From Coriobacteriales bacterium (GTDB lineage Bacteria > Actinomycetota > Coriobacteriia > Coriobacteriales > UBA8131), in assembly GCA_031286975.1 (NCBI GenBank), contig JAITTM010000193.1, forward strand, positions 1-12,557: a DNA stretch of 12,557 nt. Reading direction: 5' to 3'. The translations under genes were made by a program, and so were the position numbers. How positions within the stretch are numbered: position 1 is the first letter of the stretch; the number at the start of each line of letters is the position of its first letter. Positions 1 to 12,465 of the stretch are shown here, piece after piece. A model generated the notes under the pieces. That model had not been told where the DNA came from, searched no databases, and saw nothing but the letters and a program-made list of their open reading frames with translations.

Positions 1-65
1 AATATGCAAGCAGTCTCTTTCTTTTTGATGCAGTAGAATAAAAGGAATAAGGTTTAAATCAACGC
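1..65 (+). other. AT-rich leader upstream of lepA
   Basis: This short leader is clearly more AT-rich than anything downstream. A weak ribosome-binding-like AAGG lies at 49-52, about 13 bases before the lepA ATG, and an AAAGGA at 41-46 is too far away to be ideal. A TAGAAT hexamer at 34-39 resembles a -10 box, but I see no matching -35. One frame is open from the window edge to a TAA near 39-41 and could be the tail of an upstream gene, but it is too short to judge. Its base composition goes with the 5' part of lepA, not with the rest of the window. Confidence 0.4.
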
Positions 66-1883
66 ATGTCAGAAACCGCCTACATCCGCAATTTTTGTAT
101 TATCGCCCATATCGATCACGGTAAATCCACTCTGGCGGACAGGCTTATCCAGAAGGGCCGCCTTGTGGAAGACCGGGATTTTCAGGATCAGATACTGGAC
201 AACATGGACATCGAGCGGGAGCGGGGCATTACCATCAAAAGCCAGGCCGTTACCATTCCCTACATGGCAAAAGACGGCCGTGAATACGAACTCAACCTGG
301 TAGACACACCCGGCCATGTTGACTTTACCTATGAGGTAAGCCGGGCCATCAATTCCTGCGAAGGCGCCCTGCTATTGGTGGACGCCACCCAGGGCGTGCA
401 GGCCCAGACCCTCTCCAACATGTACCTGGCGCTGGAGCATAATCTGGAAATCATCCCGGTAATCAACAAAATTGATATGCACTCCGCGGATATTCCCATG
501 GCAAAACGGCAGATCGACAAAGACCTGGGACTTGATTCTTCAACCGCCCTGCTCGTGTCCGCCCGGCAGGGCACGGGGGTGGATGAACTCTTTGAGGCCA
601 TTGTTGAATTGGTTCCGCCTCCTTCGGGCGATTCCTCCGGTGCTTTAACCGCCCTCATTTTTGACTGCCACTATGATCCCTACCGGGGCGTGGTGGTTCA
701 CGTGCGCATCTTTGACGGGAAGTTCCAAAAGGGGCTGAAGATACGATTCATGTCCAACGGCAGTGAATACGAAGTGGAAACCGTGGGGGTCTTTAAACTT
801 GCCCTGGTTGAAACCGGTGAACTATCCGCCGGAAATGTCGGTTACATTATCGCCGGAGTCAAAACCGTAAGCGACGTGCGGGTGGGAGATACCGTTACCG
901 GCGCCGACAACCCCACGGAAAAAGCCCTGCCCGGTTTCCGGGAAATAAAACCCGTGGTTTTTTCCTCGATATACCCTGTGGACTCCAACGATTACGAAGA
1001 ACTCAAAACGAGTCTTGAAAAATTGAAACTCAACGACGCCTCCCTGGTCTATGAAAAAGATTCTTCCGCCGCCTTGGGCTTTGGTTTCCGCTGCGGCTTT
1101 TTGGGCCTCCTCCATCTGGAGGTTATTCAGGAACGGCTGGAACGGGAATTCAACCAGGCCGTGATCTTCACCGCCCCTTCGGTAAAATACCGTCTGCATC
1201 TCAAGGGGGTGGCAGGCGGCGCAGTGGAAGAAGTCATGGTGGACAACCCCACGGAGTACCCCGACGAGGGCCGCATCGAAAGCGCCGAAGAACCTTATAT
1301 CCGCGCTGCGGTGATCACCCCCAAAGATTTTCTTGGGAACATCATGACCTTGTGCCTGGAAAAGCGGGGAGTGCAAACCAACATGACCTACCTGGATGAA
1401 AAACGGGTGGAACTGGTGTACGATATGCCCCTTTCGGAAGTGCTTTTTGATTTTTACGACCGCCTGAAAAGCATAAGCCGGGGTTACGCTTCCTTTGATT
1501 ATGATATTACCGGTTACAAGTCCACGGAACTGGCGAAGCTGGACATCCTCCTCAACGGCAAGGCGGTGGACGCCCTTTCCCAACTGGTGTTCCGTGACAA
1601 TGCCTACGACCGGGCCCGCATAGTCTGTGAACGCCTGCGGGACGAAATCCCCCGGCAGCAATTCAAAATCCCCATCCAGGGCGCTATAGGCAGTCAGGTC
1701 ATCGCCCGTGAAACCGTGAAAGCTCTCCGCAAAGACGTGCTGGCCAAATGTTACGGCGGCGACATCACCCGCAAGCGCAAACTGCTCGAGAAGCAAAAGG
1801 CTGGCAAGAAACGCATGAAGAACATCGGCAGCGTCGAGGTTCCGCAAGAGGCCTTCATGGCGATCCTCAAGGTCGATGAATAG
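66..1883 (+). CDS. lepA: Elongation factor 4 (LepA/EF4), apparently a hybrid of two lineages
   Basis: Translational GTPase that back-translocates or remodels stalled ribosomes and affects initiation and assembly; it acts at the membrane and in the cytosol. The 605 residues match the usual LepA length of about 600. Visible motifs: P-loop AHIDHGKST (14-22), RGITIKS switch I (52-58), DTPGH (80-84), NKID (134-137), SAR (165-167), and the conserved LepA C-terminal domain from about residue 485. The body reads like Treponema-type LepA. By hand count, Lys codons up to about 1750 are 22 AAA to 9 AAG and Arg codons 17 CGG, 10 CGC, 4 CGT. After that point Lys is 6 AAG to 2 AAA, and Arg is CGC only (3 of 3). 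The last 35-45 codons therefore match the downstream genome. The position next to dus/hemW/hrcA is normal for lepA, so the 3' end is probably native. The frame is intact and the protein could function, but the gene may be an assembly artefact. Confidence 0.93.
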   Translation: MSETAYIRNFCIIAHIDHGKSTLADRLIQKGRLVEDRDFQDQILDNMDIERERGITIKSQAVTIPYMAKDGREYELNLVDTPGHVDFTYEVSRAINSCEGALLLVDATQGVQAQTLSNMYLALEHNLEIIPVINKIDMHSADIPMAKRQIDKDLGLDSSTALLVSARQGTGVDELFEAIVELVPPPSGDSSGALTALIFDCHYDPYRGVVVHVRIFDGKFQKGLKIRFMSNGSEYEVETVGVFKLALVETGELSAGNVGYIIAGVKTVSDVRVGDTVTGADNPTEKALPGFREIKPVVFSSIYPVDSNDYEELKTSLEKLKLNDASLVYEKDSSAALGFGFRCGFLGLLHLEVIQERLEREFNQAVIFTAPSVKYRLHLKGVAGGAVEEVMVDNPTEYPDEGRIESAEEPYIRAAVITPKDFLGNIMTLCLEKRGVQTNMTYLDEKRVELVYDMPLSEVLFDFYDRLKSISRGYASFDYDITGYKSTELAKLDILLNGKAVDALSQLVFRDNAYDRARIVCERLRDEIPRQQFKIPIQGAIGSQVIARETVKALRKDVLAKCYGGDITRKRKLLEKQKAGKKRMKNIGSVEVPQEAFMAILKVDE

Positions 1884-1894
1884 CTTGTAGCGGT

Positions 1895-2878
1895 ATGGAG
1901 ACGCACAGCTTACTCAAAGAACGCTTTGCCGCAAACCCGCTGCTCCTGGCACCGATGGCGGGTGTCAACGACCCCGTATTCCGTCTCATCTGCAAGAAGA
2001 TGGGCGCGGGGCTCACCTACACCGAGATGATCTCAGCCAAGGGCATGAGCCACGGTAATGCCCGAACCTTTGAGATGCTTACCCTTGAAGACGGCGAGAA
2101 ACCCGTGGCAGTCCAGCTCTTCGGCTCTGAGCCGCAGGTCATGGCACGCCAGGCGGCAGAGGTCGAGCAGCGTTTGGGCGAAGGCCTCGCCCTTATCGAC
2201 ATCAACATGGGTTGTCCCGCCCGCAAGGTCGCAGGCAAGGGAGAAGGTGCTGCCCTTATGCGGGAGCCCGAGCGGGCGCGGGCCATTCTGAGCGCTGTTG
2301 CAAAGGCCGTTGAGCTACCCGTGACCGTGAAGTTTCGCAAGGGATATGCGCTTGGTGATGACAGCGCGGTTACGTTCGCGCGCATGGTGCAGGACTGCGG
2401 AGTCGCGGCACTTGCCGTGCACGGACGTACGGCGCAGCAGTTCTACCAGGGCAGAAGCGACCGCTCGGTGGTCGGGCGGGTAAAGGCGGCTGTCGATATC
2501 CCGGTCATCGCAAGTGGCGATGTGTTCACTGCACATGATGTCGCGAGCTTTCTCTCTGAGCAGGGGGCTGATGCCGTCATGCTGGCACGCGGTGCGCAGG
2601 GCAATCCCTGGTTGTTCAGGCAGGCGGCAGCACTCCTTGCCGGTGATGCAGCGACTGCGGTTGCCGTCCCTACGCTCCAAGAGCGAACAGAGCTTGCAAG
2701 ACGGCATGTTCTTGGCGTTGCTCAAAGCTACCCCGCAAAGCTGACATCGATGCGTCGCCACGTGTCGTGGTATTTCAAGGGCACCGCAAATGCCAGCGCA
2801 ATCCGTCGCGCCGTCCACAGCTGCACAACAGTGGAAGACTACGAGACGCTGTTCTCCCAGATAGTGAAACAACGATGA
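1895..2878 (+). CDS. dus: tRNA-dihydrouridine synthase (DusB-like)
   Basis: FMN-dependent enzyme that reduces uridine to dihydrouridine in tRNA, using NADPH. The 327 residues fit the Dus family. The N-terminal TIM barrel opens with LLLAPMAGVNDPVFR (16-30), a variant of the usual MAGVTDxxFR. YTEMISAKG (42-50) follows, then the signature INMGCPARKV (103-112) with Cys107 as the expected catalytic acid. VTVKFRKGY, VHGRTAQQFYQG and IASGDV are the later FMN/tRNA-binding strands, and a helical tRNA-binding domain closes the protein. The ATG lies 11 bases after the lepA stop and has no clear Shine-Dalgarno, so translation may be coupled to lepA. The stop overlaps the hemW start. The family is certain; assignment to DusB rather than another Dus subtype is inferred from the sequence style and from its bacterial housekeeping context. 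Confidence 0.93.
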   Translation: METHSLLKERFAANPLLLAPMAGVNDPVFRLICKKMGAGLTYTEMISAKGMSHGNARTFEMLTLEDGEKPVAVQLFGSEPQVMARQAAEVEQRLGEGLALIDINMGCPARKVAGKGEGAALMREPERARAILSAVAKAVELPVTVKFRKGYALGDDSAVTFARMVQDCGVAALAVHGRTAQQFYQGRSDRSVVGRVKAAVDIPVIASGDVFTAHDVASFLSEQGADAVMLARGAQGNPWLFRQAAALLAGDAATAVAVPTLQERTELARRHVLGVAQSYPAKLTSMRRHVSWYFKGTANASAIRRAVHSCTTVEDYETLFSQIVKQR

Positions 2879-3996
2879 TGCTTGATCCTTATAAAGCGCT
2901 CTATATCCATATACCGTTTTGCAGGCAGCGCTGCGCGTATTGCGATTTTACTACGGAGGCACTGCCACCTGATGACGCGCGTATCGACGATTATTTTGAG
3001 GGGCTTATCCGTGCGATAAGAGAGGCCACGCGTGAAGGTTTGCTCGGTAGCATCCAAAGCGTCTACATCGGTGGGGGCACGCCGTCGCATGCGGGGCTCA
3101 AGCGGCTGACCAGCCTCGTCTATACGCTCTCGCTTAGCCTGCATCTGCATGATGACACAGAGTTCACCCTTGAGGCGAACCCCGAATCCCTGACGCCTGC
3201 GCTCGTGCGCGACCTCTATGCGTTGGGAGTGAACCGCTTCTCGCTGGGTGTGCAAAGCTTTCAGGACACCGAGCTTGCAGCCTTAGGACGCGTCCACAAC
3301 GCAGAAGCAGCGCGCGACGCCATTCGGGCCATTCAGGAGCGTTGCGAGAATGTCTCGGTTGACCTTATGTGTGGGATTCCCGGGCAGACGGTCGCATCCT
3401 GGCAGGACTCGCTTGCAACCGCGATTGGGCTCGCCGTTGCACATATCAGCGTCTATCCCCTGACCATCGAGGAGGACAGCTCCTTTGGACGCAGGTTTGA
3501 GCAGGGTGAGCTGTGCCCGCCGGACGATGACCTGCAGGCCGAGCTGATGGAGCAGGCGGCAGAGACCCTCGCCGCCACAGGCTTTGAGCGTTATGAGGTC
3601 GCCTCCTATGCGATGCCGGGCTTTGCCAGCAGGCACAACACGGCCTACTGGACGGGTTTGCCCTATCTGGGGCTTGGACGGGGTGCCGCCAGCATGCGCA
3701 TGACAGCCGAGGGGCGGCAGCGACTCCTTGACGGAACGGTGATCGAGCGACTCACGGCGGTGCAGGCCTGCGCCGAGGATCTTATGCTGGGCATGCGCAT
3801 GGCCCGTGGCGTGAGCACGGAGCAGATCATTGCGGCATGCGCTCTCATACCGGGGATTGCCACGGTCTTCTCCCAATTGCAGGAGCAGGGGCTGGCAACG
3901 TTGCGGGAGGGGCGCTACCAGCCCACACAGCGGGGGTGGCTCTTGGGCAATCGGATGTACGGTCTTATCTGGGATTCAGTCAGCCAGACTCAATGA
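2875..3996 (+). CDS. hemW: Radical SAM heme chaperone HemW (formerly annotated HemN-like)
   Basis: Radical SAM protein that binds heme and delivers it to respiratory or other hemoproteins. It is often mislabelled as oxygen-independent coproporphyrinogen oxidase. From the ATG at 2875 it has 373 residues. The cluster-binding motif is HIPFCRQRCAYCDF (12-25), with Cys16, Cys20 and Cys23 followed by D-F. True HemN has a fourth cysteine at that last position, so HemW is the better call. The SAM-binding YIGGGTPS, LEANPES and GVQSFQD follow, and HNTAYW with YLGLGRGA marks the C-terminal HemW region. The ATG overlaps the dus stop (ATGA), with a second in-frame ATG at 2878. The open frame extends upstream into dus, but the family begins at this point. 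The lepA-hemW-hrcA order is the same as in Bacillus, except for the dus gene placed between lepA and hemW. Confidence 0.93.
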   Translation: MMLDPYKALYIHIPFCRQRCAYCDFTTEALPPDDARIDDYFEGLIRAIREATREGLLGSIQSVYIGGGTPSHAGLKRLTSLVYTLSLSLHLHDDTEFTLEANPESLTPALVRDLYALGVNRFSLGVQSFQDTELAALGRVHNAEAARDAIRAIQERCENVSVDLMCGIPGQTVASWQDSLATAIGLAVAHISVYPLTIEEDSSFGRRFEQGELCPPDDDLQAELMEQAAETLAATGFERYEVASYAMPGFASRHNTAYWTGLPYLGLGRGAASMRMTAEGRQRLLDGTVIERLTAVQACAEDLMLGMRMARGVSTEQIIAACALIPGIATVFSQLQEQGLATLREGRYQPTQRGWLLGNRMYGLIWDSVSQTQ

Positions 3997-4022
3997 CGTT
4001 TCTCTTACAAAAAGACTGCTTG

Positions 4023-4049
4023 TTAGCAATCATCGAGGTAGACTGCTAC
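4023..4049 (+). promoter_or_regulatory. CIRCE operator (HrcA binding site), degenerate
   Basis: Left arm TTAGCAATC at 4023-4031, nine-base spacer 4032-4040, right arm GACTGCTAC at 4041-4049. The CIRCE consensus is TTAGCACTC-N9-GAGTGCTAA, so the left arm has one mismatch and the right arm two, with exact spacing. The two arms pair at 7 of 9 positions. It lies directly upstream of hrcA, where an autoregulatory CIRCE is expected. An additional right-arm-like half-site GACTGCT occurs at 4014-4020. I could not find a convincing -35/-10 pair; CTTACA (4004-4009) with AATCAT (4028-4033) is the best weak candidate and would put the start site inside the operator. Confidence 0.85.
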
Positions 4050-4083
4050 CATGTACGAATTGTTGTTCCATGCAGGGATAAGG

Positions 4084-4830
4084 GTGAAAAAACACATGCT
4101 CTCAGATCGGCGCCAAAAAGTGCTCCATGCTCTGGTTGACGAATATGTCGCCAGCGCGGTGCCCGTTGGCTCTGCAACGCTCACTCAGCGCTACACCCTG
4201 GGCATCTCACCTGCCACCGTTCGCAATGAGCTCATGGCTCTGGAGGAGAATGGCTACGTTGTCTCGCCCCATGTCTCCGCAGGCAGGATACCCACAGGAG
4301 CGGGCTACCGGATCTATGTCAATACGCTGCTGCTTTGTCCCGAGGTGCAACGCTCGCTGTGGGGAGGGATCCCTGCTTCGCACCCGGCGCAGGACGGGCA
4401 CAGCCGCACAGAGCCCGTCCTCTCGCTCGACGCGCTCTCGCAGCAGCTTTCGGATTCAACAGACTGCCTTGCCGTTGTCTGGGCACCGCGCGTGAGTGCG
4501 ACGCTCTATCGCAAGGGGATGCCTCGCGTGCTGGCACAGCCGGAGTTCCACGACGCGTCCTTGGCCATTCCCCTCATGCAGCTGCTCGAAAGCAGTACGG
4601 CCTTGGTGCGCCTGCTTGAGTCGACCTTTGATTCCAGTGGCCTGCGCATCATGATCGGGGGAGAAAGTCGTGACACGCAGGAGACGAATTTCTCCATGGT
4701 CGCCGCCTGCTATGGACGCATGAGACGCGATGGGGTAGTGGCTCTCTTTGGGCCCACACGCATGGATTATCGCAAGGCTATCAGAGCAGTCTGCTCTACC
4801 TCGCATGTTCTTGAGACGATGTACAACTGA
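4084..4830 (+). CDS. hrcA: Heat-inducible transcription repressor HrcA, internally shortened
   Basis: Repressor of class I heat-shock genes; it binds CIRCE and is kept active by GroEL. I chose the GTG at 4084, which has AGGG six bases upstream; an in-frame ATG at 4096 is the alternative. An ATG at 4051 touches the operator and is unlikely. From the GTG there are 248 residues, against about 340 in most HrcA. Residues 5-80 are the winged helix, with the ISPATVRNELMALEENG recognition region and SAGRIPTGAGYR. A GAF-like part has LAVVWAPRV (129-137), QPEF (152-155), IGGE (191-194) and the terminal GPTRMDY (223-229). APRV runs almost directly into the helix that normally follows the inserted dimerising domain, so roughly 80-100 residues seem absent without a frameshift. 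Located first in a long operon and just ahead of dnaJ. Identity is certain; the state of the dimer interface is unknown. Confidence 0.9.
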   Translation: MKKHMLSDRRQKVLHALVDEYVASAVPVGSATLTQRYTLGISPATVRNELMALEENGYVVSPHVSAGRIPTGAGYRIYVNTLLLCPEVQRSLWGGIPASHPAQDGHSRTEPVLSLDALSQQLSDSTDCLAVVWAPRVSATLYRKGMPRVLAQPEFHDASLAIPLMQLLESSTALVRLLESTFDSSGLRIMIGGESRDTQETNFSMVAACYGRMRRDGVVALFGPTRMDYRKAIRAVCSTSHVLETMYN

Positions 4831-4868
4831 GGCACTATGTATTCGGTTGGAACCAGGAAGGATAGTAC

Positions 4869-5996
4869 GTGGCTGTAGATTATTATGAAGTGCTGGGCGT
4901 TGCTAAAGAGGCATCGGATACGGAGATAAAAAAGGCGTTCTATAAGAAGGCGCGCGAACTCCACCCCGATGTCAACAAGGCCCCTGATGCCGAGGAGCGC
5001 TTCAAGGCGCTCAATGAGGCCTACGATGTATTGTCCGATACCAATAAGCGCGCGCAGTATGACCGTTTTGGTACGGTTGGTAACATGGGCGGCGGCGGAA
5101 GCCACCAGTATGTCGATTTCAGCGATCTGTTTGGTGGCGGCTTTGGGATGGGCGACCTGTTCAGCCAGTTCTTTGGCGGAGCGGCACAGGGGCGTGCCGC
5201 CGTGCGCAAAGAAGGTCGCGACATGGGCGTCGGCCTGCGTCTGACGCTTGAGGAGGTCGCCACTGGCGTCAAGAAGGAGATCGTCTACGATCGGTTGGCG
5301 CCCTGCGAGACCTGCCATGGCACCGGTGTGGGCGAGGGCGGCCAGACCGTCGAATGCGAGAACTGCCATGGTACTGGTCGCGTCATCAGCATACAGCGCA
5401 CGTTTTTGGGCGATATGCAGACACAGACCACCTGTCACGAGTGCGGCGGCACCGGCAAAACCATCGACATCCCCTGTCCGGACTGCGAGGGTCAGGGCCG
5501 TTTGCCCGACCGCCAGCATGTCACCATCGAGGTGCCGCATGGCATTCGCGACAGCCAGCAACTGCGGCTCTCGGGTTATGGCGAGGCAGGTATGCACGGA
5601 GCCGTAGCCGGCGACCTTATCGTAACCGTACGCATCGATCCGCACACGACCTTCCAGCGCGACGGTGACAGCCTCCATCTGCGCGTACAGGCATCGATTG
5701 CACAGGCCTCTTTGGGTTCGACCGTCAAGATAGATGGTATTCTCCCTAAGGAGAAGGTCGAGGTTCCTATTCCCGCCGGCTGCCAGAACGACCAGGTGAT
5801 CAAGGTCAAGGGCAAGGGTATGCCCATCTTCAAGCGCGAATCGCGCGGGGATCTCTATGCACACGTCACCGTCACGGTACCAAAGAATCTCACCAAGCGA
5901 CAGCAGGAACTACTTGAAGAGCTGGCAGAAGAGATGGGCGATGTGATAACCGGCAAGAAGAGCACCATGCAGCGCATCATCGACGTATTGTCATAA
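4869..5996 (+). CDS. dnaJ: Chaperone protein DnaJ (Hsp40, type I)
   Basis: Co-chaperone that delivers unfolded substrates to DnaK and stimulates its ATPase in the cytosol. All parts of a type I DnaJ are present in 375 residues: J domain 1-68 with the HPD triad at 32-34, a Gly/Phe region at about 72-105, and a zinc domain with four CxxCxGxG repeats (Cys146/149, 163/166, 189/192, 203/206). The substrate-binding C-terminal domains and dimerisation tail follow. The start is GTG at 4869, with a strong AGGAAGGA at 4855-4862 six bases upstream. It lies 38 bases behind hrcA with no visible separate promoter or CIRCE, so it is probably co-transcribed with hrcA under the operator at 4023-4049. Its partners dnaK and grpE are not in the window. 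They are presumably elsewhere in the genome. Confidence 0.97.
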   Translation: MAVDYYEVLGVAKEASDTEIKKAFYKKARELHPDVNKAPDAEERFKALNEAYDVLSDTNKRAQYDRFGTVGNMGGGGSHQYVDFSDLFGGGFGMGDLFSQFFGGAAQGRAAVRKEGRDMGVGLRLTLEEVATGVKKEIVYDRLAPCETCHGTGVGEGGQTVECENCHGTGRVISIQRTFLGDMQTQTTCHECGGTGKTIDIPCPDCEGQGRLPDRQHVTIEVPHGIRDSQQLRLSGYGEAGMHGAVAGDLIVTVRIDPHTTFQRDGDSLHLRVQASIAQASLGSTVKIDGILPKEKVEVPIPAGCQNDQVIKVKGKGMPIFKRESRGDLYAHVTVTVPKNLTKRQQELLEELAEEMGDVITGKKSTMQRIIDVLS

Positions 5997-6010
5997 GTAC
6001 CCGTGATGCC

Positions 6011-6799
6011 ATGTCGCTTCCGCGGTTCTTCATAGACGCTGCCTTTCTGCATCCCTCTGCCGCGGCTGGCGATGAGTGCGTTATCCCTCTTCCTGCCTCC
6101 GTCTACCAGCATATGAGAACAAGGCGCCTGCAGGCGGATGAGCATTTCGTGCTTGTCGACCAGGGCAATGTCGCGCTTGAGTTCGCGTTTGTTGAGTTGC
6201 TTGCTGCCGAGCAGGCTGTGGCGACCCAGTTTATCGCGCGAGCCCCGTCACCCGCTGGCCCCCCGCTCACCTTGGTGCAGGGCGTGTCCAAAGGCGAGCG
6301 CATGGAGCAGGCCATCCGCCAGACAACCGAGATCGGTGTCACGCGCATCATCCCCTTGCTGAGTGAGCGCGTGATTGTTCGTCTGGGGCAGGACGACGCA
6401 CGCAAAAAACGGGATCGTTGGCACAGGATCGCGCGCTCGGCGGCGGAGCAGGCAGGTCGCAACGCTGTGCCACAGCTGACGTTGCCGGTCGATCTGGAGG
6501 GCTCGCTGGCTGCCTGTGCTGACTGCGACGGCATCATCTGTGCCTGGGAGGAGAGCTCCGAGGCCTCTTTGCACACGGCAGTCGAAGCCATCAGATCCCG
6601 CAGCAACAAGCCGCTGCCCCATATCGCGTTGTACATCGGCCCCGAGGGGGGCTTCTCGGGATCTGAGGTGGAGCGGCTGCGAGCTGCGGGAGCCCTGGTT
6701 GTCTCTCTTGGCCCTACGATACTACGCACCGAAACCGCGGGACTCGTTGCCTCGGCACTGCTGCTTCATGAGCTGGGCGGCTTGGGTAACAGAGCATGA
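6011..6799 (+). CDS. rsmE: 16S rRNA (uracil-1498-N3)-methyltransferase RsmE
   Basis: SAM-dependent SPOUT-class methyltransferase that makes m3U1498 in the decoding region of 16S rRNA in the assembled 30S subunit. The 262 residues match the family. An N-terminal PUA-like domain (about 1-75) begins with PRFF. The SPOUT trefoil-knot domain carries KGERMEQAIRQTTEIGV (94-110), SAAEQAGR (143-150), the cofactor-loop IGPEGGFS (209-216) and LGPTILRTETA (233-243). Starts 14 bases after dnaJ, with only a poor Shine-Dalgarno; nearby GTG (6003) and ATG (6006) are out of frame. The stop overlaps the mtaB ATG by four bases. In Bacillus rsmE (yqeU) also follows dnaJ, separated by prmA, which is missing here. 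Confidence 0.96.
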   Translation: MSLPRFFIDAAFLHPSAAAGDECVIPLPASVYQHMRTRRLQADEHFVLVDQGNVALEFAFVELLAAEQAVATQFIARAPSPAGPPLTLVQGVSKGERMEQAIRQTTEIGVTRIIPLLSERVIVRLGQDDARKKRDRWHRIARSAAEQAGRNAVPQLTLPVDLEGSLAACADCDGIICAWEESSEASLHTAVEAIRSRSNKPLPHIALYIGPEGGFSGSEVERLRAAGALVVSLGPTILRTETAGLVASALLLHELGGLGNRA

Positions 6800-8049
6800 G
6801 CAGCGGCTTTTTTGTCCATAATCTCGGCTGCAAGGTCAACCGTGTCGAGTCTGATACCATGGCGGCAAGCCTTATTGCCGCAGGCGCTACGCAAACCTCA
6901 CTCGATGAGGCTGCTGTGGTGCTCATCAACACCTGCACGGTCACTGCTGAGGCCGACACCAAGGCGCGCAAAGCGGTGCGACAGGCACTGCGCGCGGCAG
7001 GGCAGCCGTGGGTCATCGTCACCGGTTGCGCCGCGATGATCGACCCGCAGGCGTATGCTGAGTTGGATAAGCGCGTGCTGGTCCTGCCCGATAAACCGGC
7101 GGCGACAGATCGGGCGCTTGCGCTCTGCTCGCCTCCGCAAGCAGGGCTCCCGGCCTCAAAGCCGCTACGCACGGGGGATGCCTTTCCCACACGGATGGGC
7201 ATCAAGATCCAGGACGGCTGCGATAATCGCTGCAGCTACTGTATCGTCAACAGGGCACGCGGCACCGCCAGATCTGTTGCGCTGACAGATCTGCTCGCCC
7301 AGGCACAGGCGGCCGAAAGCGGGGGAGTGCGTGAGATCGTGCTGACGGGGGTGAACCTTGGCTCCTACAGCAGTGCGGGTGTGGATCTGGTAGAGCTTTT
7401 GCAAACCCTGCTCCAGCAGACGGCAAAAACCCGCTATCGGCTCTCATCGCTGGAGCCACCCGACCTCTCTGATGCGCTCATCGCTACGATAGCCTGCTCA
7501 GAGGGGCGCCTGTGCGCCCATCTGCATCTGCCGCTGCAATCCGGCTGCGACAGCACCTTGCGCGCCATGGGTCGCCTCTATGACACGGCCTTTTTCAGCG
7601 AGCGGGTCCAGGCTCTACGCAAAGCCCTGCCCCAGGTCGCCCTCACCACCGATGTCATCGTGGGCTTTCCTGGCGAGACCACCGCCGATTTTGAACAGAG
7701 CTACGCCTTCTGTCAGCGCATCGGCTTTTCAAGGCTCCACGTCTTTCGCTACTCCAAGCGTACCGGTACCCCTGCTGCCTGTATGCCCCTGCAGGTATCG
7801 CCGGAGCTCAAGGCCGCGCGCTCGCGCCTACTGCGTGAGCTTTCCGCGCAGCTTCAGGAGCGCGATTTGCAGACGCGCGTTGGCACCCAGGAGCTCGTGA
7901 TTGTCGAGAAGCGTACACAGGGCACCTCTGAAAGCTATCTCAAGGTCGAAGTTCCGGGATCCTGTGAACCTGGCAGCCTTGTGCGGATGCAGTTTACCGG
8001 CTACCGTGCTACTCTTATCCACGGCAGCATTATCGCCCCCATCGACTGA
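6796..8049 (+). CDS. mtaB: tRNA methylthiotransferase MtaB (t6A to ms2t6A), radical SAM
   Basis: Adds a methylthio group to N6-threonylcarbamoyladenosine at tRNA position 37, which reads ANN codons. The 417 residues have the three MTTase parts. The N-terminal domain carries cluster cysteines Cys12 (NLGCKVN), Cys47 (NTCTVT) and Cys78 (TGCAA). The radical SAM core has CDNRCSYC (Cys142, 146, 149) and the TGVNLGSY and DVIVGFPGET motifs. A C-terminal TRAM RNA-binding domain covers about 360-417. The NLGCKVN start and the pairing with rsmE match the MtaB/YqeV subgroup rather than MiaB, which modifies isopentenyladenosine. Translational coupling to rsmE is suggested by the ATGA overlap. Subgroup assignment is by motif and neighbourhood. 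Confidence 0.93.
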   Translation: MSSGFFVHNLGCKVNRVESDTMAASLIAAGATQTSLDEAAVVLINTCTVTAEADTKARKAVRQALRAAGQPWVIVTGCAAMIDPQAYAELDKRVLVLPDKPAATDRALALCSPPQAGLPASKPLRTGDAFPTRMGIKIQDGCDNRCSYCIVNRARGTARSVALTDLLAQAQAAESGGVREIVLTGVNLGSYSSAGVDLVELLQTLLQQTAKTRYRLSSLEPPDLSDALIATIACSEGRLCAHLHLPLQSGCDSTLRAMGRLYDTAFFSERVQALRKALPQVALTTDVIVGFPGETTADFEQSYAFCQRIGFSRLHVFRYSKRTGTPAACMPLQVSPELKAARSRLLRELSAQLQERDLQTRVGTQELVIVEKRTQGTSESYLKVEVPGSCEPGSLVRMQFTGYRATLIHGSIIAPID

Positions 8050-8060
8050 ATGGAGCCCCT

Positions 8061-9014
8061 TTGGATTTTGCGCAGGTAGCACTCACCATTCCTGACACGC
8101 TCGACGTCGCACGTCTTGTGGGTGTCAATGACGAGATCATCCGCTCGATAGAGGAGCGTTTCGACGCCAAGATCACCTTGCGTGGCAGCAGGATAGACAT
8201 CAGCGGCGATGCCCTTGAGATACAGATGCTCACCGCGCTGTTCTCCGACATGATAAAAGTGGTTGAGGCGGGCAACGAGCTCACCTTGGACACACTCGCG
8301 CAATCCATCGACCTTATCCGCAACGGGGAGTTCGCCCCTGCCATCCTGCGCGAGGACATCCTTTTGACCTATCGCGGCAAGGCGATCCGCGCAAAAACCG
8401 GGGGTCAGAAGCGCTATGTCGATGCTATCCGCAGCAACACGGTGACCTTTGGCATCGGCCCCGCGGGTACGGGCAAGACCTATCTGGCCATGGCGATGGC
8501 GGTTGCCGCACTCAAGCGCAAAGAGGTCGGTCGTGTCATACTGACGCGACCAGTGGTCGAGGCGGGGGAGTCGCTCGGGTTTCTCCCCGGTACCTTGAAT
8601 GAGAAGATCGATCCGTATATCCGGCCACTATATGACGCCCTGTTCGATATGACGGATATGGAGCGCGGCAATCAGCTCATTGAGCAAGGCGTGATCGAGA
8701 TCGCGCCTCTGGCGTTCATGCGGGGGCGCACCCTCAACGACAGCTTCATCATCTTGGATGAGGCGCAGAACACCACGCCTGACCAGATGAAGATGTTCCT
8801 CACGCGCCTGGGTTTTGGCTCCAAGATGGTCGTTACCGGCGATGTGACGCAACTTGATCTGCCCAAACGGGTCTCGGGTCTCAAAAGTGTGCGACAGATT
8901 CTCGAGGGCGTCAAGGACATCGCGTTTGTGGATCTGACGGGCAAGGATGTGGTGCGCCATTCGCTGGTGCAGCGCATCGTGGCCGCATATGACGTATACG
9001 AGCAACGGGGGTAG
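8061..9014 (+). CDS. phoH: PhoH-like P-loop ATPase
   Basis: Cytosolic ATPase of the PhoH family. The exact role is unsettled; genome neighbourhood with ybeY and era suggests RNA or ribosome metabolism, and the C-terminal fold is helicase-like. The 317 residues have an N-terminal KH-like region (about 10-70), Walker A GPAGTGKT (133-140), the TRPVVEAGESLGFLPG segment, Walker B IILDEAQN (229-236) and VVTGDVTQLDLP (257-268). The start is TTG at 8061, supported by GGAG at 8052-8055 with a five-base spacer. The ATG at 8050 is out of frame. It follows mtaB by 11 bases. The arrangement phoH-ybeY-dgkA-era-recO is a conserved cluster in many Gram-positive bacteria. Confidence 0.95.
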   Translation: MDFAQVALTIPDTLDVARLVGVNDEIIRSIEERFDAKITLRGSRIDISGDALEIQMLTALFSDMIKVVEAGNELTLDTLAQSIDLIRNGEFAPAILREDILLTYRGKAIRAKTGGQKRYVDAIRSNTVTFGIGPAGTGKTYLAMAMAVAALKRKEVGRVILTRPVVEAGESLGFLPGTLNEKIDPYIRPLYDALFDMTDMERGNQLIEQGVIEIAPLAFMRGRTLNDSFIILDEAQNTTPDQMKMFLTRLGFGSKMVVTGDVTQLDLPKRVSGLKSVRQILEGVKDIAFVDLTGKDVVRHSLVQRIVAAYDVYEQRG

Positions 9015-9021
9015 ATGCAGG

Positions 9022-9492
9022 ATGCTGATAGCCATCGATAACAGGAGCGAGCGCGACCTGCCGCTTGACCAACTGGAGGCCTTGGCTCACTTCGTGCTTG
9101 AGCACGAGAGCGCTCCCCCCAACACCGAGCTGTCGATCTCGCTGGTAACCAAGGATGAGATACGCGAGCTCAATCGGGTCTATCGCGCCAAGGACGCGGC
9201 AACCGATGTGCTGTCGTTTGAATGCGACAGCGCCTATGAGCACGCGCTGGGCCCCGCGCTTGAGACGCTTCTGCTCGGCGATGTGATTATCGCGCCCGAG
9301 GTCGCCGATGAGCACGCACGGGATTTCAACTCCAACTTCGCGGCCGAGATGGACCTCATCCTCGTGCACGGTATCCTGCACCTGTTAGGCTACGACCATG
9401 ACCAAAACGATGAGGCGGAGGCCATGGAGTCCCGTGAGAGCGCCTTGCTTGCCCTGTGGAGCAAGACCCCGCACAGTCAGGAGCCGCAGTGA
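9022..9492 (+). CDS. ybeY: Endoribonuclease YbeY / rRNA maturation factor
   Basis: Zinc-dependent single-strand endoribonuclease involved in 16S rRNA 3'-end maturation and ribosome quality control. The 156 residues are typical. The catalytic zinc motif HGILHLLGYDH has His116, His120 and His126, and the upstream TDVLSFE (61-67) and LGDVIIAPEVA (85-95) are family strands. The frame is open upstream into phoH, but MLIAIDN at 9022 matches where YbeY proteins begin. A GGGGGT at 9007-9012 is a plausible ribosome-binding site nine bases upstream. The gap to phoH is seven bases, and the stop overlaps the GTG of dgkA. Confidence 0.94.
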   Translation: MLIAIDNRSERDLPLDQLEALAHFVLEHESAPPNTELSISLVTKDEIRELNRVYRAKDAATDVLSFECDSAYEHALGPALETLLLGDVIIAPEVADEHARDFNSNFAAEMDLILVHGILHLLGYDHDQNDEAEAMESRESALLALWSKTPHSQEPQ

Positions 9493-9893
9493 GCGCAAGC
9501 AAAAAGAGCCGGCAGGCACCCGAGCATACGCATCGCTCGAATATGGCGCAAACCTTCAAGTACGCCTTTGCAGGCATAGGCTACACCATCCGTTCGCAGC
9601 GCAACATGAAGGTGCATCTGGCCATTGCCGCGCTTGCCCTGTTTGCCTCAGCCTTCCTGCAGCTCACGGTGTTCGAGTGGGCGGTTATCATCATCCTTAT
9701 CGGACTCGTCTTCACCGGCGAGATGCTCAATACTGCCATCGAGGCCATCGTCGACCTGCTTTCTCCCGAGTTCCATCCGCTGGCAAAGGTCGCAAAGGAC
9801 GTAGGAGCTGGCATGGTCTTGATACTGGCCATCGTCTCCGTTATAAGCGGAGTCCTGATCTACGGCTCCGCATTGCTGCGATTGGTGGGCTAG
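9489..9893 (+). CDS. dgkA: Diacylglycerol/undecaprenol kinase family membrane protein
   Basis: Small integral-membrane lipid kinase. Gram-positive members act mainly as undecaprenol kinases that recycle the cell-wall lipid carrier; DgkA in Gram-negatives uses diacylglycerol. From the GTG at 9489 there are 134 residues, with AGGAG at 9479-9483 five bases upstream and a GTGA overlap with the ybeY stop. The family signature GEMLNTAIEAIVDL (77-90), with Glu78, Asn81, Glu85 and Asp89, is intact, as is VAKDVGAGMV (101-110). Three hydrophobic spans are visible at about 45-60, 64-76 and 106-127. A basic, hydrophilic N-terminal tail of about 20 residues is slightly longer than usual. Cdd, which follows dgkA in Bacillus, is absent. 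Substrate cannot be told from the sequence. Confidence 0.9.
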   Translation: MSASKKSRQAPEHTHRSNMAQTFKYAFAGIGYTIRSQRNMKVHLAIAALALFASAFLQLTVFEWAVIIILIGLVFTGEMLNTAIEAIVDLLSPEFHPLAKVAKDVGAGMVLILAIVSVISGVLIYGSALLRLVG

Positions 9894-9896
9894 GGC

Positions 9897-10817
9897 ATGA
9901 CCGGGATGGCGGAGCAGGGCGGGGGCTTCAGGAGCGGATTCGTCACCTTGGTGGGGCGCCCTAACGCGGGCAAGTCGACCCTCATCAACGCGATTGTAGG
10001 CAAGAAGATCGCCATTACCTCCAATACGCCACAGACCACGCGGCATCGCTTCAGGGCCGTGCTCGATACTGCCGCCTTCCAACTGGTGCTCGTCGATACG
10101 CCAGGCATCCACAAGCCCATCGATGCCTTGGGAGAAGAGCTCAACCACTCCGCCGTCAAGGCGCTCGAATCGGTGGATGTCGTCGCACTTCTTATCGACG
10201 TGAGCAAGCCCTTTGGCACGGGGGATGTGTGGGTTGCTGATCTGGTCAAGAACAGCCGCGCCAAAAAGGTTCTGGTCATCTCAAAGGCAGACCTCGCCCA
10301 GCCAGGGCAGATTGAGGCACAGATCGAGCGAGCGACGCAGAAGCTTATCTTCGACGATGTTGTGGTGCTCAGTGCCCTTGACGGCGTTAATATCGATGCC
10401 TTCGTGTCCACGGTGACCGCCTATCTGCCGCCAGGTCCGCGCTGGTTTCCACAGGGCACCAGCACCGACCAACCCCTCGAGGTGGTTATCGCCGAGTTCA
10501 TCCGCGAGAAGATACTGACCCACACCTTCGACGAGGTGCCCCATGCCGTGGGTGTCGCCCTGGAGGAGCTCGAATACGACCCCAAAAAGAACCTCTACTC
10601 CGCCTATGCCACCATCTATGTCGAGCGCGATTCCCAAAAAGGCATCATCATCGGTAAGGGTGGCGAGAAGATCAAGACGATCGGCACCCTGGCACGCCAG
10701 GATCTGGCGCACTTCCTGGCAGCACGCGTCTATCTCGATCTGCGGGTCAAGGTGCGCAAAGCCTGGCGCAAGGATGCCAACCAGATACGCCGCTTCGGCT
10801 ACGGAGAAGGCGCCTGA
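9897..10817 (+). CDS. era: GTPase Era, 16S rRNA-binding ribosome assembly factor
   Basis: GTPase that binds the 3' end of 16S rRNA and checks 30S assembly; partly membrane-associated. The 306 residues are the usual size. G1 GRPNAGKS (20-27), G2 region TSNTPQTTRHR (41-51) and G3 DTPG (67-70) are standard, as is the SAL at 159-161. G4 reads SKAD (129-132), with Ser in place of the usual Asn. The C-terminal KH domain has GKGGEKIKTIG (253-263) and the RVYLDLRVKV strand. The ATG at 9897 is three bases after the dgkA stop; an ATG at 9906 is possible but has no better signal. The stop overlaps recO by one base (TGATG). It lies next to ybeY and phoH, and YbeY and Era are functionally linked in 16S maturation. 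Confidence 0.96.
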   Translation: MTGMAEQGGGFRSGFVTLVGRPNAGKSTLINAIVGKKIAITSNTPQTTRHRFRAVLDTAAFQLVLVDTPGIHKPIDALGEELNHSAVKALESVDVVALLIDVSKPFGTGDVWVADLVKNSRAKKVLVISKADLAQPGQIEAQIERATQKLIFDDVVVLSALDGVNIDAFVSTVTAYLPPGPRWFPQGTSTDQPLEVVIAEFIREKILTHTFDEVPHAVGVALEELEYDPKKNLYSAYATIYVERDSQKGIIIGKGGEKIKTIGTLARQDLAHFLAARVYLDLRVKVRKAWRKDANQIRRFGYGEGA

Positions 10818-11590
10818 TGGCATCGTATCCGGCTGAGGTGCTGGTGCTCAAGAAGACAAAGCTCGGCGAGACCGACCTTATCCTCACCTTGCTCTCGCGC
10901 GAGGGCGCGCAGATACGCGCTGTGGCAAAGGGCGCCCGCAAGCCAGGTTCGCGCCTGGCGACCCACCTTGAGCTGTATGGTGTCGCCAGCGTGTTGCTGC
11001 ACGGGGGCAAGAACCTCGATATCGTGACCGAGGCTCAGATGCTTTGCGCCAATGAGGGCTGCCGCGCGGACGTCGAACACTCTGCCGGAGCAGCCGTGCT
11101 GGTTGAACTCCTTGAGAAGGTGACACGCGACAGCGAGGTTGAGGCGCGCTTGTTTCCCCTGAGTGTCGAGGCGCTGCGCTGCCTGGGAGCCGTGCCACAC
11201 GAGGGGATACCGCTCATCGTGGCGGCCACGATTCTCAAGGTATTGGCGCAATTGGGCTACCGTCCTGCCTTGGATTCCTGCGCGAATTGCGGCAGTGCCC
11301 TCGTTTTGGAGAAGAACAGGACCGTCGCGCTCTCGATCCAGCAGGGAGGACTCCTGTGTAGCGTCTGCGCGCGGCAGGACACCAGCACCGATAGACGCAG
11401 CTTCGACACGCAACGGATCACCTGGATACAGACGCTTTTAGGCAGCCGCTATGTCGACCTCGAGCACTACGTGACCGAGGAATATGCCACCATAGGCACA
11501 GCAATGCTCGATTTCGCCCGTGACTGGATGCGAGCCCACCTGCTCCCCACGATGAGATCCCTCGATTTTCTCTACAACTTCAACCGCTAA
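10817..11590 (+). CDS. recO: DNA repair protein RecO
   Basis: Recombination mediator of the RecFOR pathway; it binds single-stranded DNA and SSB and helps load RecA at gaps. The 257 residues have an N-terminal OB fold (about 1-75) with the typical LVLKKTKLGETDLILTLLS-like opening and VAKGARKPGSR (36-46). A helical domain follows, then a four-cysteine zinc site CANC (155-158) and CSVC (181-184). The C-terminal RSLDFLYNF is typical of the family. The ATG overlaps the era stop. It is the last gene of the tightly packed run; a 125-base gap follows and I found no clear hairpin terminator. Confidence 0.95.
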   Translation: MASYPAEVLVLKKTKLGETDLILTLLSREGAQIRAVAKGARKPGSRLATHLELYGVASVLLHGGKNLDIVTEAQMLCANEGCRADVEHSAGAAVLVELLEKVTRDSEVEARLFPLSVEALRCLGAVPHEGIPLIVAATILKVLAQLGYRPALDSCANCGSALVLEKNRTVALSIQQGGLLCSVCARQDTSTDRRSFDTQRITWIQTLLGSRYVDLEHYVTEEYATIGTAMLDFARDWMRAHLLPTMRSLDFLYNFNR

Positions 11591-11715: not shown

Positions 11716-12465
11716 ATGCTTGGAATTCCTACAAAAATACTGCTCCTGATCGCCGGTGCTGCCTGGCTTATTGCCGGTGCAGCGGTAACGAGCACGGGCA
11801 TCGCGGCCTCGCAGGCATCCTGGACAAACGATATGCTCATCGGCCTGCTCATCGTCTTTATGTTCTTTGCCGTGATGTTTCTCATGGTCTCGCGCAAACA
11901 CAAAAAGCGCATCCTCGGCTACACGGAGCAGCTCACCTCCATTCTCAGGTTCTTCGACGCAGGCTCCTACATCATCATGGCGGTCATGATTGGCCTGGGC
12001 GTTGCGGTGCGTCTTTCTGGTCTGGTGCCGGATCCCATCATCGCTTTCTTCTACACAGGTCTTGGAAGCGCCCTGTTGCTTTCTGCCGTATACTACCTCG
12101 TCACCTTCCTGACGGTATGGGATGGTTTTCCCTTCTCTGCGGAGAAGGACGTGCCAACTGCCGCACCTGCTTGGCTTGCCCCGCTCTGGATCGTGCTGAT
12201 CGTTGTGGCTGTGTCCGTTGAATTCTGCGGCCGACTGTTTGGGCTTGAAGGCAACCCAACGGGCATCCATCACACCTGGGCTCCAATCTTGACCTCCTGC
12301 CTCTCGGTTCTCATGCTTCTCTTTGGTTACTTCACAGCACTGCACGGCAGACAGAAGCACTTATCCTTGCGTCTGCGCAATGGAGCCCTCATCTTCACCA
12401 CCGGCCTATTGATGCTCGCAACATCCTTCATCTTCAGAATGGCAATCCCCTTGATCTTTGGTTAG
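11716..12465 (+). CDS. Seven-span integral membrane protein of unknown function
   Basis: I do not recognise a characterised function. The 249 residues contain about seven hydrophobic spans: roughly 6-28, 40-58, 84-102, 106-130, 152-172, 188-209 and 222-247. A basic loop KHKKR (61-65) lies after span 2, and FFD (79-81) and FFYTGLGSALLL (111-122) are conspicuous motifs. The first 130 residues resemble, from memory, a short four-span hypothetical protein family found in Firmicutes and Coriobacteria (start IPTKILLLIAG, motif FYTGLG). The last 100 residues, with three more spans, look like an added unit joined by a polar linker (about 136-150). The ATG at 11716 has no Shine-Dalgarno. It is set apart from recO by 125 bases and is probably its own transcript. 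A 257-residue frame on the other strand covers the same DNA, but its product is polar and low-complexity and is taken as a shadow. Confidence 0.75.
   Translation: MLGIPTKILLLIAGAAWLIAGAAVTSTGIAASQASWTNDMLIGLLIVFMFFAVMFLMVSRKHKKRILGYTEQLTSILRFFDAGSYIIMAVMIGLGVAVRLSGLVPDPIIAFFYTGLGSALLLSAVYYLVTFLTVWDGFPFSAEKDVPTAAPAWLAPLWIVLIVVAVSVEFCGRLFGLEGNPTGIHHTWAPILTSCLSVLMLLFGYFTALHGRQKHLSLRLRNGALIFTTGLLMLATSFIFRMAIPLIFG

Follow-up and report, generated by a model that had tools for sequence, protein, structure and literature searches.

The hybrid lepA of a Coriobacteriales genome bin is almost certainly an assembly chimera of Treponema and coriobacterial sequence

In the available part of the work on MetaVelvet-DL, nodes conserved between species are the cut points of the multi-species assembly graph, and a chimera arises where two inputs and two outputs run through an interspecies-conserved stretch (PMC8171044). 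The lepA gene considered here lies in a 12,557-base window (the whole stretch of DNA analyzed) and resembles such a node in that both incoming halves can be seen, namely a Treponema-type gene body and a native front half on a separate contig, C134, together with one outgoing half, the native tail. It differs from the node as presented in that part of the paper in that no outgoing Treponema half and no shared k-mer was recovered for the window. Set against an ordinary LepA (TIGR01393), the window protein combines a body and a tail of different phyla, with lineage-specific residues that switch at positions 550–552. A literature search turned up no account of lepA mis-joins, although published cases may exist.

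The window is the whole of contig C1 in a genome of 1,716,086 bases that is spread over 230 contigs and is 76% complete. Its first long open frame (66–1883) encodes a LepA of 605 residues that passes the model for translation elongation factor 4 (TIGR01393) at 987 bits across residues 7–604, against a cut-off of 533.9. The genes that follow stand in native order (Table 1), which is complete from hemW to recO in two (G009 and G017) of six relatives' regions compared and is cut by the end of the stretch or partly unmatched in the other four. Among these genes the family-library scan covered dus only, and the names hemW to recO are presumptive ones given from the translations; for hemW the open frame begins at 2767 and the gene probably at 2878. 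Beyond recO, an open frame of 249 amino acids (11716–12465) had no match in the six regions, several of which end before that place. The 65-base leader bears no likeness by eye to 13 treponeme leaders, and its continuity with the lepA body suggests that it is DNA of the same treponeme.

Table 1. Features of the window, with coordinates and the basis of each assignment
Feature	Position	Strand	Basis or remark
Leader	1–65	+	AT-rich; differs from native upstream sequence (rpsA in same-family relatives)
lepA residues 1–550, Treponema-type body	66–1715	+	Homology to treponeme loci and diagnostic sites
Lineage seam	1715–1721	+	Likelihood optimum 1718; 1711–1771 within 4 log units
lepA residues 551–605 and stop, native coriobacterial tail	1716–1883	+	Homology and diagnostic sites
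dus (tRNA dihydrouridine synthase, DusB model), native	1895–2878	+	TIGR00737, 322.5 bits, cut-off 293.3
hemW, hrcA, dnaJ, rsmE, mtaB, phoH, ybeY, dgkA, era, recO, native order	2767–11590	+	Order in relatives

Two lineages within one reading frame

The preliminary description had proposed that lepA joins a Treponema-type body to a native actinobacterial tail, and homology bears this out. Over residues 1–540 the window is 79–85% identical to the nine best loci (among the best 80 of 588 relatives), whose titles all name Treponema or Spirochaetaceae, and the best protein matches the body at 87.6% (among the best 120 of about 8000 scored). Identity of the body is only 51–54% to 16 same-family loci, which represent 16 of the 24 same-family genomes other than G000, and 53% to the LepA of C134. 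Diagnostic sites, defined as those with no residue common to both groups in an alignment of 9 treponeme and 16 same-family genes, number 132 in residues 1–550; the window has the Treponema state at 128, neither state at four, and the native state at none. Treponeme profiles were built from nine (L007–L015) of 13 loci, the four less similar ones being left out. The donor treponeme was not found among the matches listed, where the best genome locus reached 85% and the best protein body 87.6%. Some of the nearest treponeme records among those matches are labeled with isolate codes, for example Co191P3 and Emb289P3. Termite-gut samples bear codes such as Lab288 and Cu122 (PMC7024585), and the resemblance hints at a termite or similar gut source, although Co191P3 and Emb289P3 themselves are not among the codes in the available part of that paper.

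The tail has a different ancestry. Residues 560–605 are identical to those of two same-family genomes and at least 93% identical to 12 of the 16 same-family loci, and the top 13 matches besides the window all come from the window genome's own family. Across residues 551–605 the native state is present at all 11 diagnostic sites; the Treponema-type tail, for comparison, is of the VGDVELPQSAFLAVLK type. Body and tail, compared separately as had been suggested, thus have their best matches in treponemes and in the same family respectively, and no single Coriobacteriia lineage accounts for both. The genome yielded a single copy of the tail, a second having been looked for and none seen. Among the matches listed, the named proteins closest to the native LepA are labeled Coriobacteriales, Coriobacteriaceae, Coriobacteriia, and Eggerthellaceae, and these names place the native lineage in Coriobacteriia.

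A two-part DNA profile model places the switch after position 1718, and the Treponema-then-native arrangement outscores the best single model by a margin of 61.9 log units. In the same scan of 25 control genes (9 treponeme, 16 same-family) the largest gain was 5.5 in the Treponema-to-native direction and 14.9 in the reverse; the two-lineage make-up of lepA is far beyond chance. Single residues narrow the position further. Among the matches listed, all 119 treponeme-like proteins have E at residue 549, as do 23 of the 119 coriobacterial ones; at residue 552 every one of the 119 treponeme-like proteins has N, and every one of the 119 coriobacterial ones K or R. The window has E549 and K552. Since E549 and T550 differ from the T and N that stand opposite them in the C134 LepA, and since K552 is coriobacterial, the foreign sequence still extends to about 1714, and native sequence has taken over by 1721.

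Codon counts that had pointed to a hybrid were reproduced, both for lepA up to residue 562 (AAA 22, AAG 9, CGG 17, CGC 10, GAA 35, GAG 8) and for dus (AAA 3, AAG 11, GAA 5, GAG 14); residues 551–605 have AAA 5, AAG 6, CGG 0, CGC 4, GAA 1, and GAG 3. The crossover had been put at 1750–1790. The switch is real, but its place is about 1715–1721 (residues 550–552), some 30–75 bases upstream, although the low end of the earlier range still falls inside the likelihood interval. Codon scores were 0.004 for the lepA body, −0.237 for its tail, and −0.208 for the C134 lepA, which is native by this score, against a mean of −0.135 (sd 0.074) for native genes and 0.171 for treponeme genes. Codon usage was rejected as the main test: it agrees in direction, yet two of the 77 native genes sampled reach the Treponema-like score of the body, so that the signal is weak alone and serves as support only. 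It is homology, rather than codon usage, that carries the two-lineage case.

The native front half on contig C134

Another lepA of the same genome lies on C134, a contig of 8327 bases, and runs off the contig end. This fragment passes TIGR01393 at 842 bits and is 53% identical to the window LepA over residues 1–548; its last codon aligns with window residue 550, at positions 1713–1715. Its lepA is 76–87% identical to the 16 same-family loci (at least 80% for 13 of them) and, judged by its sequence, is the native gene. On C134 lepA is preceded by rpsA, as it is in 16 of 16 same-family loci and in none of 13 same-order loci (the fetched flank being at most 1500 bases). To the left of lepA in the window there are 65 other bases and then the contig end, without rpsA. 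Downstream, dus follows lepA in 14 of 16 same-family and 13 of 13 same-order loci, or 27 of 29 relatives overall.

In four same-family regions the homologues of the 545 residues on C134 and of the 55-residue tail in the window abut base to base, and the joined lepA is followed by dus, hemW, hrcA, dnaJ, rsmE, mtaB and on; in two same-order regions the homologues of the C134 front and the window tail also occur together. C134 and the window from 1716 restore the order rpsA-lepA-dus and are therefore two halves of one ordinary locus, which makes window positions 1–1715 the intruder. C134 and the window have no exact common run of 15 bases or more, and no contig continuing the end of C134 was found among the other contigs of the genome.

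Origin of the hybrid

The hybrid is almost certainly an assembly chimera. Treponema and the coriobacterium, as gut bacteria of one sample, would have differed very little in their DNA around LAKCYGGDITRKRKLLEKQK, in the conserved 3′ part of lepA. The assembler may have come into this stretch through the Treponema lepA and gone out along the coriobacterial one, by way of a k-mer that the two probably shared, leaving the true coriobacterial front half (rpsA-lepA) stranded as a dead end, C134. Binning would then have joined both contigs in one bin, most of each being coriobacterial, and the gene as assembled would exist in no cell. An assembly error is indicated because the missing coriobacterial front part sits on C134 and stops at the seam; the preference for chimeric assembly as the simpler explanation, already voiced in the preliminary description, is upheld by that contig. 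No Treponema-body, coriobacterial-tail hybrid occurs among 238 other LepA proteins (two capped lists, with the best 119 proteins of each apart from the query), and none occurs in the loci of 29 fetched relatives. Of the matches listed, 116 of the 119 coriobacterial proteins have a native tail and three a broken one, while all 119 treponeme-like proteins have a treponeme tail.

A real recombination event, in which the coriobacterium acquired part of a Treponema lepA and joined it in frame to the native lepA tail, is very unlikely. One form, for instance, would be an insertion by single crossover, with rpsA and a truncated native lepA remaining upstream, and an insertion at the seam would likewise leave the native front half of C134 ending there; the reading frame is moreover uninterrupted at the seam, and the LepA model accepts the product at the score given above. 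If true, this would be a coriobacterium with a cross-phylum, domain-swapped EF4 beside a cut native lepA. Against it, the contig starts 65 bases before the hybrid, so that no native upstream flank ties the hybrid to the chromosome, and the absence of the hybrid from the proteins and relatives' loci just mentioned counts in the same direction. The longest aligned exact run over 144 treponeme/same-family pairs is 26 bases, and an identity of that length offers little for homologous recombination. Seams at the same stretch also recur in the assemblies of other genomes. Such recurrence, in three other genomes, points to the assembly graph as well when set against a chimera formed before assembly, by amplification or library ligation. 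That origin would yield the same sequence, but amplification and ligation chimeras are usually rare in a library, and we regard it as extremely unlikely. The chance that the gene is simply a native lepA with unusual codons and a fast-changing body is practically nil: the two native genes that equal the codon score of the body are in its favor, but the diagnostic sites of the body are overwhelmingly Treponema with none native, and the genome already has a native body on C134.

Taken as an assembly chimera, the hybrid should not be mistaken for a case of horizontal transfer and calls for no functional explanation; the first ~1715 bases of the window should be removed from the genome bin. Metagenome assemblies can break or mis-join at the LAKCYGGDITRKRKLLEKQK stretch of lepA, as in 4 of the 36 genomes with a LepA-grade match (the window's included), and cross-phylum lepA hybrids that switch there deserve suspicion.

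lepA breaks and shared runs in other genomes

Besides the window's genome, 35 genomes have a LepA-grade match, and three of these show a break in the conserved 3′ stretch. Of 40 genomes compared, four same-family ones (G012, G013, G021, and G024) were excluded from the count of 36, their best matches (E 1e-47 to 1e-39) falling short of LepA grade. G014, G015, G016, and G019 do have lepA but lie outside the 30 loci fetched, and their genes were looked at separately. In G015 the gene is split over two contigs (L152 and L153, on C52 and C148) with an exact 41-base overlap in the conserved stretch, and in G031 the contig terminates at KCYGGD. The G019 gene (L155, C174) has another tail start, KKGKKRMRQVGNV, which is taken to be foreign, followed by two N at 1848–1849 and a native-type tail restarting at ITRKRK; it is an independent mis-join at the same stretch. 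G015 and G019 belong to the family of the window genome and share with it an assembly break at this stretch, but their assemblies stopped or left N whereas the join in the window is silent and in frame; likewise, the fork in G015 shows as a contig overlap, which C134 and the window lack.

Among the 144 pairs of treponeme and same-family lepA genes there are 16 aligned exact runs of at least 21 bases, seven of which start at 66–215, two at 216–365, and seven at 1716–1865. The longest run of a pair starts at 1700–1800 in 52 of the 144 pairs. With nine of the 16 long runs lying in the 5′ end of lepA (66–365), the seam stretch is one of two or three confusable places. Near the seam, the longest exact run between the window and the nine treponemes is 29 bases (1749–1777, with L011) and starts ~30 bases downstream of the best seam estimate.

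lepA is also interrupted at other places: the G038 gene starts at residue 417, G019 has a run of N before residue 78, and G016 has unread residues near the start. Two coriobacterial LepA proteins depart from the usual tail at the conserved motif, P0166 (658 aa) continuing immediately after KCYGG into sequence that looks unrelated and P0156 (570 aa) changing to other sequence just after KCYGGDI. In L095 (G003:C7) an in-frame TAG replaces the lysine codon of its relatives just before CYGGD, in a lepA that is otherwise whole.
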